Part shown: positions 56,128-64,000 of the stretch, in pieces
Numbering within the stretch: the stretch's first letter is position 1
How the letters are laid out: every line of letters starts with the position of its first letter
Assembly: GCA_951828515.1 (NCBI GenBank)
Contig: OX639992.1
Location: 1,054,001 to 1,118,000 of the forward strand
Direction: 5' to 3'
DNA from: an uncultured Poribacteria bacterium
GTDB lineage: Bacteria; Poribacteria; WGA-4E; WGA-3G
Length of the DNA stretch: 64,000 nt
Made by a program: the position numbers and the translations under genes
The notes under the pieces: model-generated
The model's database searches: none
What the model was told of the DNA's origin: nothing
Seen by the model: only the letters and a program-made list of their open reading frames with translations

Positions 56128-56142
56128 AGTCCCGTGATCACC

Positions 56143-56270
56143 AAATTAACTGCTGGCGAGGTTTCTAACCTCGCAAATTAACTGCTGGCGAGGTTTCTAA
56201 CCTCGCAAATTAACTGCTGGCGAGGTTTCTAACCTCGCAAATTAACTGCTGGCGAGGTTTCTAACCTCGC
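56143..56270. repeat. Four perfect tandem copies of a 32-bp hairpin unit
   Basis: Units 56143-56174, 56175-56206, 56207-56238 and 56239-56270 are identical and contiguous. Each contains the GCGAGGTTTCTAACCTCGC palindrome preceded by AAATTAACTGCTG. The array ends 9 bp before the moxR ATG, so it occupies the whole upstream leader. The hairpin is the same as in the MITE-like elements. Confidence 0.85.
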
Positions 56271-57266: not shown

Positions 57267-57326
57267 TACCCCTCGTGTCTCTTTTCGGGCTGTTGACGAA
57301 GTTCCGACCTCATACCTCTGATAATA

Positions 57327-57442
57327 TATAGTAAATCCTGAAAATACTTGGACACTTTAGAAAACACAAAACCCGTTCGCTGGCGAGGTTTCCGAACCTC
57401 GCCACATTAGAGCGTGTAAACTTAATTGTGGGATTTACTATA
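57327..57442. repeat. MITE-like element, copy C
   Basis: 116 bp with 12-bp terminal inverted repeats TATAGTAAATCC and GGATTTACTATA, and the GGCGAGGTTTCCGAACCTCGCC hairpin at 57382-57403. Confidence 0.75.
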
Positions 57443-57560
57443 ATATTTGTGATTGCCAAAAACAGGCGAAAATGATAATATAATATTTGTGATTGTCAAA
57501 AACAGGCGAAAATGATAATGAGGAAATTGCGATTGCCAAAAACAGATGGAAATGATAGTA
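57441..57560. repeat. Three tandem 40-bp repeats leading into the fic gene
   Basis: 57441-57480, 57481-57520 and 57521-57560. The first two differ at two positions, the third more. They carry a TGTGATTGCCAAAAACAG core. The third ends at the A of the ATG at 57560. Confidence 0.8.
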
Positions 57561-58701
57561 TGAAAAACTTCATAGCGGGTAAATACAGACAACAACGAGA
57601 ATATAAAAACGAGAATATAAAAGTTTTACGCCTTCTCACATAAACTATCCTTTTGTCTGGGAAAATCCACAGATAAATCTTCTTGTTGAAGACGCGGCAA
57701 GACTTTTGGGAGAACTCAACGCCTATGCTGAACTTCGTCCAGATGTTAATCTCTCCATTCCAATGAGCATCGCGAAAGAAGCAACATACTCCAACCAAAT
57801 TGAAGGCACAAAAACTGAATTTGATGAAGCCATTTTACCGCAAAGAGAGATTAGTCCAGGGAGACGAGATGATTGGCAGGAAGTCCAGAATTACATTGAA
57901 GCGGTGAACTTCGCGATAACCAAACTGTCCGAACTTCCGCTTTGTATACGACTCCTAAAGGAGGCGCACAAGATATTGCTCTCTGATGTTCGCGGACAAC
58001 ACAAAGCCCCCGGAGAAATTCGCAAAACTCAGAATTGGATCGGCGGTTCATCGCCTTCTGATGCATTTTTTGTGCCGCCATCAGCGGAGGAGGTTCCGGA
58101 TCTTTTAAGCGACTTGGAAAAATTTTGGCACAACCAATCACTACAGATTCCAGAACTGATTAAAATTGCGATTACACACTACCAGTTTGAAACCATCCAT
58201 CCTCTTCTGGACGGCAATGGACGGTGCGGAAGACTATTAATCGTTTTGCAACTCATCGACGCGCAGGTACTGAGCAAACCTTTCCTTTACATGTCCACGT
58301 TTTTTGAGAAACACAGAAACTCATACTATGATTCGCTTTCTATGGTCCGCAAATCAAATGATTTAGAGCAGTGGATTACATTTTTTTTAAACGGAATAGT
58401 TGAAACCACCCAAGATGGGATTAAGACATTCAAAGGGATTCTCGAACTTCAGCGAGAATATGAGACCAACATATTAACTCTCGGCTCTCGAGCGAAAAAC
58501 GCGCAAAAACTGTTGCGTTTTATGTACGCTACACCGATTGTTAACGCGAGATCGGTTGAAAAGGAGCTAGAGATGAGTTTTTCAAGCGCGAACCGTCTCC
58601 TAAAATCCTTGACAGCACTCGGTGTGCTGAAGGAAACTACAGGGCATTCCCGCAACCGACTCTTCGTCTTGGAGGAATACCTGAACCTCTTTAGAAGTTA
58701 G
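57560..58701 (+). pseudogene. Fic-domain AMP-transferase gene frameshifted by a 14-bp tandem duplication
   Basis: From ATG 57560 the N-terminal MKNFIAGKYRQQREYKN fits a Fic/DUF4172-type start, but translation ends at TAA after 27 codons. Two nearly identical 14-bp units (57596-57609 and 57610-57623) cause it: removing one gives REYKSFTPSHINYPFVWENPQ, the expected continuation, and joins the frame at 57607-58701. The Fic motif HPLLDGNGRCGRLL and the inhibitory SNQIEG helix are intact, and a winged-helix C-terminus follows. Recent mutation, phase variation or assembly error are all possible. Confidence 0.8.
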
Positions 58702-59371: not shown

Positions 59372-59448
59372 CACCAATACCTAAAGACCACGCCCTTCCC
59401 TACTGGTGAGATTTTTCAACCCCGTCTCTGTGCATACAAAATTTTTTC

Positions 59449-59477
59449 TTGACATCACCAGCACAATTTTGTTACAC
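59449..59477 (+). promoter_or_regulatory. Promoter of the broken methyltransferase gene
   Basis: TTGACA (59449-59454) and TTACAC (59472-59477), 17 bp apart. It lies 50 bp before the ATG at 59526. Confidence 0.55.
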
Positions 59478-59525
59478 TCAAAGAACAACCCAAACTTTCA
59501 CTTCAGAGAACGAGATCGGAAAAAT

Positions 59526-61100
59526 ATGCAAGAATCCTTACAAAAACTGCAAAATCTCCTCCAACAACTCTTCCGCGCAGATGCCGCGGACCTCGACTTT
59601 GGTATCTATCGCATCATCAATTATCGGCGCGACCAAATTCAAAACTTCATTGATGAGGAACTTCCCGCTATTGTTAACAAGACACTTGAAGCAAACACTG
59701 AGACGGAATCGGCACGGGAACGCATAACCGAACTTGAAAATCAAGTCCGAGAATTAGGTGGAAATCTCGGAGAAGAAATGTTGGACGCTGATTGAAACCT
59801 CATCAACGAAGCCTATAGAGAAAGGCCCCTTATCCAACAATATCTTGAAGCGAGAGAACAACTCGGTTCTCCACAATCCCAAGACCAACGCGCAGATACC
59901 GTTTTTAATCACCTCTACACTTTTTTCTCACGCTATTATGAAAACGGAGATTTCATTCCACGTAGACGCTATTCCCAAACTGAACGCTACGCTGTTCCAT
60001 ACAATGGTGAAGAAGTCTACCTCCACTGGGAAAACCGAGACCAGTATTACGTCAAGAGGGGTGAGCACTTCTCCACTTACCGTTTCAAATCTCAAGACAT
60101 CACCGTCACCTTTGACTTACGCGATGTAGATGTTGAAAAAGACAACAATCTCATCAATGCCGACTACACCGAACCCCTCTCCGTCGATTTCCTGAAAGAA
60201 AATCCGAATCTCGTTTTGGATACCTGTCACTTTGATTCTAATTTTACAGGTCGTCTCTTGTCAAATTTTGAGGATTTGGATAAAGAAACAGACGGTTTGT
60301 TAATTCATGGTGAGAACTTTCAAGGAGTAAATCTACTGACCGAAAAATACCGAGAATCCGTAAAAACAATTTACATTGACCCACCTTACAATACGGGTGG
60401 AACTGATTTTGTTTACAAAGACTCTTATCAACATTCGAGTTGGTTTTCCTTCATAGCAGATCGAATTGCAGTTTCACACGAATTGCTATTCCAAGGAGGG
60501 GCGATCTTTATATCAATTGATGATAATGAAGTGCATCACTTACGGATGTTAATGAATGAGATTTTTGGGGAATCGAACTTTAATGCGCAATTCTTTTGGA
60601 TGCGGACCGCTACTCCCCCAAGTCTATCAAAAACTGTTCGCAGAAAAATGGAACCCCTCATCTGCTATAGGAAATCGAGAAGACTGGATCTCTTTGGTGG
60701 ACTGACAGAAGGGGGGGATATGCCGTTACTTAATGAAGCAAATATCACTCGTCAACTTGAATTTTCAAAAGACGCATTTTGCCGGGTAAACCTTCCAGAT
60801 GGTATTTATAAACCACACAATTATGGCAGAATTAGACTTATTGAAGAAGTAGAGGTAAAAGATGGGCGATTTCTAAATAATCTGATTATGGAAGGCAGAT
60901 TTAAATGGGTTCAAGAAACTGTTCAAAGCGAAATTGAAGCTGGGACTCTTTTCTATATAAAGAGTGATAAATTTTCTATCCGTTACGAAAGAAATGAGAA
61001 AAAACGTGTGAAAGTTCCCTCAAATCTAATTACGCAGAAAGAATGCCAAGTAGGAACTAATGAAGAGGCAAACACAGAACTAGTAGTCTGTCACATCTAA
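59526..61100 (+). pseudogene. Adenine-specific DNA methyltransferase gene with an in-frame TGA and a 3' truncation
   Basis: From ATG 59526 the frame is continuous through 61100 except for one TGA at 59793-59795, in LDAD-stop-NLINEAYRE; a GGA to TGA change would explain it. After the stop the same frame gives a type III-like methyltransferase with DPPYNTGGTDFVYKD (catalytic motif). It then ends abruptly after EANTEL, where the AdoMet-binding half should follow. An IS630 remnant begins there. So it carries both a nonsense mutation and an insertion or deletion. No restriction partner survives. Confidence 0.75.
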
Positions 61101-61590
61101 ACTGCTGGGTATAGCGTTTTAAGTTTGATGCGTGCGTCATCAGTTGTAAACTGCCATTGGAGAGTCGCACGTTGCTGATTTCTTCGGTCTTGCCACGTCT
61201 GGATCTCATGTTTTAAGGTGGCTTGATCGGCGATCCGCCTACAAAGACCCTGCCGAGAGAGCACGGAAAGTTCACTCTCGGCGATGTTCAACCAACTCCC
61301 GTGCTTCGGAGTGTAGTGAAACTCTAACTTTTCAGCAATACGCCGGGCTTCATCGGGAGGAAACGCTTTATACAACGAAGCTGGCTTATGCGTATTGAGA
61401 TTGTCGCAAACCAACAGGATCTTTTCGGCATCTCGGAAATGAACATCCACGAGGTCTCGACAGATGTGCGCAAAATCAAGGCTTGTTCGTTGATCCGTGA
61501 CTTCAACATGCCCAAACCCCTGAAGGGGTGCGAAAATCATAAACAGATTGCTGACGCCATTGCGCTTGTATTCAGAATCATATCGACTGG
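61097..61590 (-). pseudogene. IS630-family transposase remnant (C-terminal half)
   Basis: Only about 160 residues of transposase remain: RYDSEYKRNGVSNLFMIFAPLQGFGHVEV, LLVCDNLNTHKP (second Asp of the DDE triad) and YTPKHGSWLNIAESEL (Glu). The first Asp and the DNA-binding part are missing. The frame continues upstream to 61714 through unrelated repeat sequence. It breaks the methyltransferase gene on its left. It could be part of the insertion that truncated that gene. Confidence 0.75.
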
Positions 61591-61657
61591 AGCGAGGGAA
61601 TTTCTTCCGCGTGAATCTGTGTAATCCGCGATTCAGATAATTATAACGAAAGCTTCT

Positions 61658-61735
61658 GGCACATGCCACCCCTACGGGGTTAAAGAGAGGAAGGGTACAA
61701 GTTTCTATAGACATATCGTCCCTACGGGACTAAAG
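61658..61735. repeat. CCCCTACGGGG hairpin dimer (copy 2)
   Basis: Two units at 61658-61685 and 61706-61735, 20 bp apart, like those at 31510-31590. Confidence 0.6.
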
Positions 61736-62699: not shown

Positions 62700-64000
62700 T
62701 TACTGCAAGATGACCATCTTCCGCAGAAGGGAGATATTTCCCGCCTGTAGTTGATAGAAATAGATACCACTCGCCACGCGCTCACCGACATTATTTTTGC
62801 CATCCCAATACGCTGCACGACTCCGGCTCGTGTAGTAGCCTTCGCGCTGATGTCCGAGTTCCAACCGGCGCACGACGCTGCCACGCATATCATATATCGT
62901 AATTTTGACATCACTCGTATTTGATAACTGATAGGGTATCCACGTCTCTGGGTTGAATGGGTTTGGATAGTTCGCCGAGAGCGTCGTTTCGCTGGGGACT
63001 TCGTCGACAGGGGTCATTCTCGGTGCCGCATTTCCCAACGCATTTATGACCGTGAGAGGCAAATCCGTGGATTTGACGAATTCATAACCACTAATTAATG
63101 GTAAGGGTAACGTTTCGATATCGACCAAGACAGCACCCGTCGTGCCGGGCGTGCGTGTCACAGTGAAGGTCTCGCTTTCGATCTTGCCAACGGGTATCGT
63201 GATACTATCAGTTCCACCCGTGATGCTCCCGTTGACAACGCTGATCGACAATGCCATATTAAACGGAGCACCGGTAGGTACTGTTGCCTTGAACTGACCT
63301 TCTTCAATCTGTTTAAGTGACACCGTCAGCGGTAGCGGGTTAACAGTATTGCCAGATAGGTCAAGAATCAATAGGGAGGTGAGCCCCTCAAAGATACCAT
63401 CCGGCACGGAACTCAAATCGTTATTCTGCAGATAGAGCGTATTCAGGGAGGTGAGCCCCTCAAAGATACCATCCGGCACGGAACTCAAATCGTTATTCTG
63501 CAGATAGAGCGTATTCAGGGAGGTGAGCCCCTTAAAAATACCATCCGGCACCGAAATTAAATCGTTATTCTGCAGGTCGAGCTGCTCCAGAGCGGTGAGG
63601 TCATCAAAAATACCCGACGGTAAACTGCTCAAATCGTTGCGCGCCAGGTAGAGCTGCTCCAGAGCAGTGAGGTCATCAAAAATACCCGACGGCAAACTGC
63701 TCAAATCGTTGCGCGCCAGGTAGAGCTGCTCCAGAGCGGTGAGGTCATCAAAAATACCCGACGGTAAACTGCTTAAATCGTTATTGCTCAGCCAGAGACG
63801 CGTCAGGGAGGTGAGGTCATCAAAAATACCCGACGGTAAACTGCTCAAATCATTACCGTACAGGTCGAGCTGCTCCAAAGAGGTGAGGTCATCAAAAATA
63901 CCCGACGGTAAACTGCTTAAATCGTTATTGCTCAGCCAGAGACGCGTCAGGGAGGTGAGGTCATCAAAAATACCCGCCGACAAAGAACCCAAATCGTTGT
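62700..64000 (-). CDS. Leucine-rich-repeat protein with a FlgD/T9SS-like C-terminal domain (5' partial)
   Basis: The frame is open to the right edge, so the N-terminus is missing. At least nine LRR units of about 24 residues read LSSLPSGIFDDLTSLTRLWL-like, with the consensus LPxGIFDDLTxLxxLxLxxN. A Calx-beta-like segment follows (IPVGKIESETFTVTRTPGTTG). The last 90 residues, NYPNPFNPETWIPYQL to SGIYFYQLQAGN, are the FlgD-like fold found in secretion-sorting domains of FCB-group bacteria. It is therefore likely exported and attached to the cell surface. The DNA repeats are about 72 bp and near-identical. Confidence 0.9.
   Translation of the reverse strand, partial: NDLGSLSAGIFDDLTSLTRLWLSNNDLSSLPSGIFDDLTSLEQLDLYGNDLSSLPSGIFDDLTSLTRLWLSNNDLSSLPSGIFDDLTALEQLYLARNDLSSLPSGIFDDLTALEQLYLARNDLSSLPSGIFDDLTALEQLDLQNNDLISVPDGIFKGLTSLNTLYLQNNDLSSVPDGIFEGLTSLNTLYLQNNDLSSVPDGIFEGLTSLLILDLSGNTVNPLPLTVSLKQIEEGQFKATVPTGAPFNMALSISVVNGSITGGTDSITIPVGKIESETFTVTRTPGTTGAVLVDIETLPLPLISGYEFVKSTDLPLTVINALGNAAPRMTPVDEVPSETTLSANYPNPFNPETWIPYQLSNTSDVKITIYDMRGSVVRRLELGHQREGYYTSRSRAAYWDGKNNVGERVASGIYFYQLQAGNISLLRKMVILQ

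Follow-up and report, generated by a model that had tools for sequence, protein, structure and literature searches.

The fic gene in the window, i.e., the whole 64,000-nucleotide stretch of an uncultured Poribacteria genome analysed here, is probably a recently inactivated SoFic gene for a self-toxic anti-phage AMPylase, lying behind a conserved array via which the protein would repress fic. A frameshift, a MITE in the promoter region and a substitution in the catalytic motif are present in this gene and absent elsewhere among the genes compared, and the array with its 40-bp period is conserved upstream of fic across phyla. A 14-bp duplication near codon 15 would have placed the catalytic frame beyond the reach of the normal start, the MITE would have split the outermost operator and displaced upstream promoter sequence, and the change from HPF to HPL in the catalytic motif would have accompanied the loss. 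The features of the locus are listed below in order of position.

57319 to 57325, plus strand: outermost half-site TGATAAT, split from its partner by the MITE (upstream comparison)
57329 to 57440, no strand assigned: 112-bp MITE (TAGTAAATCC terminal inverted repeats) occupying a TA site in the fic promoter region (comparison with the sister genome G012)
57439 to 57561, plus strand: 40-bp direct repeats, 3.1 copies up to the start codon, read as a putative tandem operator array (TRF, ortholog alignment)
57452 to 57458, minus strand: half-site ATTGCCA (upstream comparison, as for the half-sites that follow)
57473 to 57479, plus strand: half-site TGATAAT
57492 to 57498, minus strand: half-site ATTGTCA
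57513 to 57519, plus strand: half-site TGATAAT
57532 to 57538, minus strand: half-site ATTGCCA
57553 to 57559, plus strand: degenerate half-site TGATAGT immediately before the ATG
57560 to 57643, plus strand: frame cut short at 27 codons, opening at the normal fic ATG, which is also the gene start in orthologs
57594 to 57622, plus strand: frame-shifting 14-bp tandem duplication (AACGAGAATATAAA, 2.1 copies; TRF), absent in all orthologs
57607 to 58701, plus strand: remaining open SoFic frame with Fic_N, Fic and C-terminal winged helix (ORF and profile matches)
57790 to 57807, plus strand: class II inhibitory motif SNQIEG, intact (sequence)
58198 to 58233, plus strand: Fic motif HPLLDGNGRCGR, in which codon 58204-58206 encodes L where 104 of 104 homologs have F
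58579 to 58608, plus strand: FSSANRLLKS, candidate recognition helix within the C-terminal winged helix (alignment to SoFic 3eqx)

The source genome is a single 5.85 Mb contig, estimated to be 95.1% complete with 3.2% contamination, and holds a single Fic gene of the SoFic-like sort. An ortholog search over 60 relatives yielded 25 same-genus loci with roughly 70-97% protein identity, and named GTDB loci span other phyla at 55-67% identity to the window fic. All homolog loci were picked by similarity to the window fic and are not independent of one another. Their start codons were set by a simple rule; two loci with no assignable start codon (L102 and L104) stand outside the start-region reading, and an ambiguous stretch in G003 was set aside. 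The copy number of the 14-bp unit was surveyed in the 25 same-genus loci and 80 further loci, the two sets partly overlapping. As a null for repeats, each upstream sequence was shuffled (dinucleotide shuffles for palindromes).

The protein encoded by the open frame matches the PADLOC SoFic profile PDLC03963 over profile positions 36-359 of 361 (E 2.3e-106). Against the NCBIfam SoFic equivalog NF046030 it scores 163 bits where the cut-off is 550, and it is therefore named SoFic-like here and not an equivalog. Among solved structures, its best relatives found by phmmer are Shewanella SoFic proteins (PDB 3eqx, 3.5e-38), with an alignment over residues 2-328 that runs through the C-terminal domain; by this alignment, the window protein appears to carry the SoFic C-terminal winged helix. 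The SNQIEG motif agrees with the class II Fic inhibitory motif [S/T]xxxE[G/N] and lies N-terminal to the Fic core. The catalytic motif HPFx[D/E]GNGRxxR reads HPL at its start, and this F167L substitution is private to the source genome. An earlier reading of the sequence had taken both elements as intact, which holds for the inhibitory helix and does not quite hold for the Fic motif. With SoFic/Sofic proteins such as S. oneidensis SoFic and EcSofic of E. coli H397, the window protein shares the full-length profile and structure match, the inhibitory motif, the Fic motif apart from the changed F, and the C-terminal winged helix, and it differs from them in its frame-shifted gene, its HPL and its low equivalog score. 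From work on other members, SoFic is described as a single-protein anti-phage system and abortive-infection toxin that is self-toxic; the wild type is toxic despite its inhibitory helix, and the toxicity of EcSofic requires dimerisation (PMC12249575). The earlier suspicion that the gene is potentially toxic is in keeping with this SoFic-type assignment.

Three copies of a 40-bp repeat had been described as ending at the fic start codon, which TRF and the ortholog alignment confirm. The array alternates TGATAAT-N12-ATTGTCA and ATTGTCA-N14-TGATAAT, and each unit is an imperfect palindrome. From 57452 onwards, successive half-sites start 21 and 19 bp apart in alternation (57452, 57473, 57492, 57513, 57532 and 57553), i.e., about two helical turns. 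The array passes through both the promoter and the 5' leader of the gene. The repeats are old, being present in the aligned ortholog upstream regions. Direct 9-mers at a lag of exactly 40 occur in 24 of 34 Poribacteria upstream regions (1.8 in the shuffle null) and in 39 of 56 loci from other phyla (null 1.2), and in these same regions no other direct lag is prominent to the same degree. A perfect 10/10 palindrome is found in 34 of the 90 regions, against 0.9% of dinucleotide shuffles. The letters of the half-sites vary by lineage, e.g., TGACAATAT, TTGAGATAT, CTTTACATAT and TGAAAATAT, and the spacing is constant. In some orthologs, a TTGACA-N17-TATAAT sequence runs into the array. Long in-frame upstream stretches in some orthologs were considered as an N-terminal extension and are read instead as stop-free repeats. 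SoFic-like genes that are only about 41% identical have inverted arrays with a different core, CGTTAATAA; a second, more distant SoFic-like gene of Poribacteria (L027-L030) has its arrays with this core. Among the eight distant SoFic-like upstream regions read, the lag is 41 in L030 and 51-52 in L159 and L029, and the array is absent in L162. A search across the source genome gave no further copy of the array, which is found at fic only.

Self-repression through the winged helix is the most likely role of this array, because both a ATGATAAT box and the architecture are common to the window locus and CccR of Yersinia pseudotuberculosis. CccR is a class II Fic protein with a C-terminal HTH, a plan shared by the window protein, and acts both as a T6SS effector and as an autorepressor. 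It represses its own promoter via AGATAATCAT-N26-ATGATAATCT, as demonstrated by footprint, gel shift and reporter (PMC9755527). Its palindromic boxes lie near the -35 and -10 elements, and its half-site ATGATAATCT is nearly identical to that of the window array, with ATGATAAT in common. The window fic likewise has palindromic boxes in its promoter, although CccR has two boxes 26 bp apart, where the window has half-sites that alternate in a tandem array of 40-bp period. A further class II Fic protein, CbFic2 of Coxiella burnetii, has a C-terminal HTH that binds DNA and induces dimers; it binds random DNA, and its cognate operator is undefined in that work, according to which SoFic DNA binding was not demonstrated as of 2023 (PMC10628234). 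In the accessible portion of the 2025 Sofic paper, mentions of a promoter or operator concern the expression vector (PMC12249575), and no published SoFic operator was found in the part of the literature covered.

By analogy with CccR, the array may be an autoregulatory operator common to many SoFic genes. On balance, it seems that SoFic AMPylases of many phyla repress themselves: the winged helix would bind a tandem 40-bp array at the start codon of its gene, which would hold the toxin at a low level and allow its release in the course of infection once array or dimer is perturbed. In this reading, half-sites vary by lineage under a 40-bp geometry that is kept. For the window gene, this would mean that the protein, bound to the array as a dimer through its C-terminal winged helix, represses fic and limits the toxin until the cell is infected. 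Co-variation between half-sites and recognition helices was marginal, at about 0.05 in two partial Mantel versions, and no claim of co-variation is made because the values reach only this level. The repeats could alternatively be sites for another regulator or tandem duplications with no function, in line with the imperfect palindromes of the window copies; this is unlikely, given that the lag stays at exactly 40 bp across unrelated phyla despite different half-sites, that the array is restricted to fic in the source genome, and that CccR offers a precedent.

It is within this putative operator that the MITE is inserted. The insert begins with TAGTAAATCC and finishes with GGATTTACTA, has TA on each flank against one TA in G012, and its flanks are contiguous in that genome. 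Among the orthologs compared, only the source genome has the MITE at fic, where it separates the outermost half-site (57319) from its partner (57452); the pair is close together in the sister genome. Because the MITE sits between these half-sites, any former upstream -35 element is now distant. Its family counts at least 43 copies in the source genome and was found in 23 of 23 same-genus genomes tested. It resembles bacterial MITEs with TA targets in its 112-bp length, terminal inverted repeats, target site and many copies, and departs from them in that no transposase with matching ends turned up among this genome's DDE_3 genes. An origin from the IS630-type (DDE_3) elements of the genome was considered and rejected, matching ends being absent at the copies checked. 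At 56142-56270, upstream of moxR, a 32-bp unit (CAAATTAACTGCTGGCGAGGTTTCTAACCTCG) stands four times in perfect tandem, and the unit contains a GGCGAGGTT/AACCTCG hairpin that is almost identical to the one at the centre of the MITE.

The 14-bp tandem duplication that the sequence-only reading held responsible for breaking the fic frame is indeed present, with 100% match between its copies by TRF. The frame from ATG 57560 ends after 27 codons at TAA 57641-57643, and the Fic frame is open downstream, its earliest usual start codon being TTG 57706, which opens 331 codons. Perfect tandem duplications with a period of at least 8 in the window are limited to this one, a short 8-mer pair and the 32-bp array, and none with a period above 10 arose when the window was resampled 20 times under a first-order Markov model. 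The duplication most likely arose by replication slippage. One unit and an in-frame ATG are found in 25 of 25 same-genus orthologs, and the other-phyla homologs with a readable start have one unit and an open in-frame start. In the closest ortholog, that of G012 (L004; 97% protein identity, and 95.8% DNA identity across a stretch spanning the junction), the aligned start region differs from the window only by missing the second unit. The duplication is private and derived, since every relative read has a single unit.

The sequence-only reading had proposed a phase-variable gene, in which gain and loss of the 14-bp unit by slippage would toggle a toxic defence gene within the population, and had treated the 40-bp repeats as background. 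A unit length that is not a multiple of three, two perfect tandem copies, a remaining Fic frame free of stops, the toxicity of the gene in relatives and the physical possibility of reversal by slippage are all compatible with this. Phase-variable tracts usually vary in copy number among relatives, with several values. In the comparison of sister genomes that had been suggested as a check, the sole difference is one against two copies, two being seen in the source genome only and a second unit in none of the 25 same-genus orthologs or the other-phyla homologs read. The proposal is without support because repeat number is invariant among relatives, and the MITE and F167L indicate loss; it is considered very unlikely. 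Nor do the 40-bp repeats belong to a switch; they form a conserved operator-like array. The private duplication, the promoter MITE and the motif substitution together fit inactivation better than a switch.

An assembly or consensus error, by which the duplication would not exist in the organism, is highly improbable. The completeness and contamination estimates, and the fact that the named relatives are metagenome assemblies, leave some room for it; set against this, assembly into one contig points to long reads, for which a clean tandem copy of 14 bp would be an unusual error, and neighbours such as moxR read through. That the protein is still made is very improbable: a -1 shift at T AAA AAC (57604-57610) would lead into the stop-free Fic frame, and the frame from TTG 57706 retains the inhibitory and catalytic motifs, but the heptamer does not fit the X XXY YYZ pattern, a canonical -1 slippery heptamer being absent, and a protein begun at the TTG would lack some 44 residues of the N-terminus. 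The missing part takes in the region of the SoFic/CccR dimerisation helix, and EcSofic toxicity requires dimerisation (PMC12249575).

Under the preferred reading of a recent inactivation, a costly toxic defence gene would have been lost, perhaps once its control had been upset by the MITE. Little decay is visible in the remaining residues of the window Fic, which points to a loss that is either very recent or incomplete. Nonsynonymous to synonymous codon changes number 6:9 on the window branch and 2:11 on that of the sister; relaxed selection is not significant by these counts (Fisher p = 0.22). Eleven window-branch codon changes relative to the sister fall close together, within 22 winged-helix codons (58543-58608; open-frame codons 280-301), a pattern suggestive of a recombination tract. 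Independent breaks are found in other Poribacteria, namely, a fic frameshift in G011 (L026, about 1500-1531) and a nonsense remnant with an in-frame stop in G022 (L156, 103-288) that adjoins the same moxR; a fragment at a contig end in G016 (L157) was left out of the pseudogene count. A close fic ortholog is missing from about nine congeners. In these Poribacteria, fic is a gene that is frequently lost.

Downstream of fic, a type III methyltransferase gene lies in several pieces at 59406-61714, with frames of 129 and 294 aa that match MTase_III, and the pieces end at a minus-strand DDE_3 (IS630-type) transposase gene. With fic frame-shifted and the methyltransferase in pieces, two nearby defence genes look broken. 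Further on, at 62700-63998, a leucine-rich-repeat protein is encoded with near-identical tandem units of 72 bp and 144 bp.

A broken fic alone looks ordinary, as one more lost defence gene, and the interest appears to lie in an operator geometry for toxin self-repression that crosses phyla. How SoFic is restrained before infection is the question on which the conserved 40-bp array bears, and the recurrence of this geometry in many phyla makes SoFic self-repression directly testable. With a MITE in its putative operator as well, the broken window copy offers a clear natural case of the loss of a costly defence gene.
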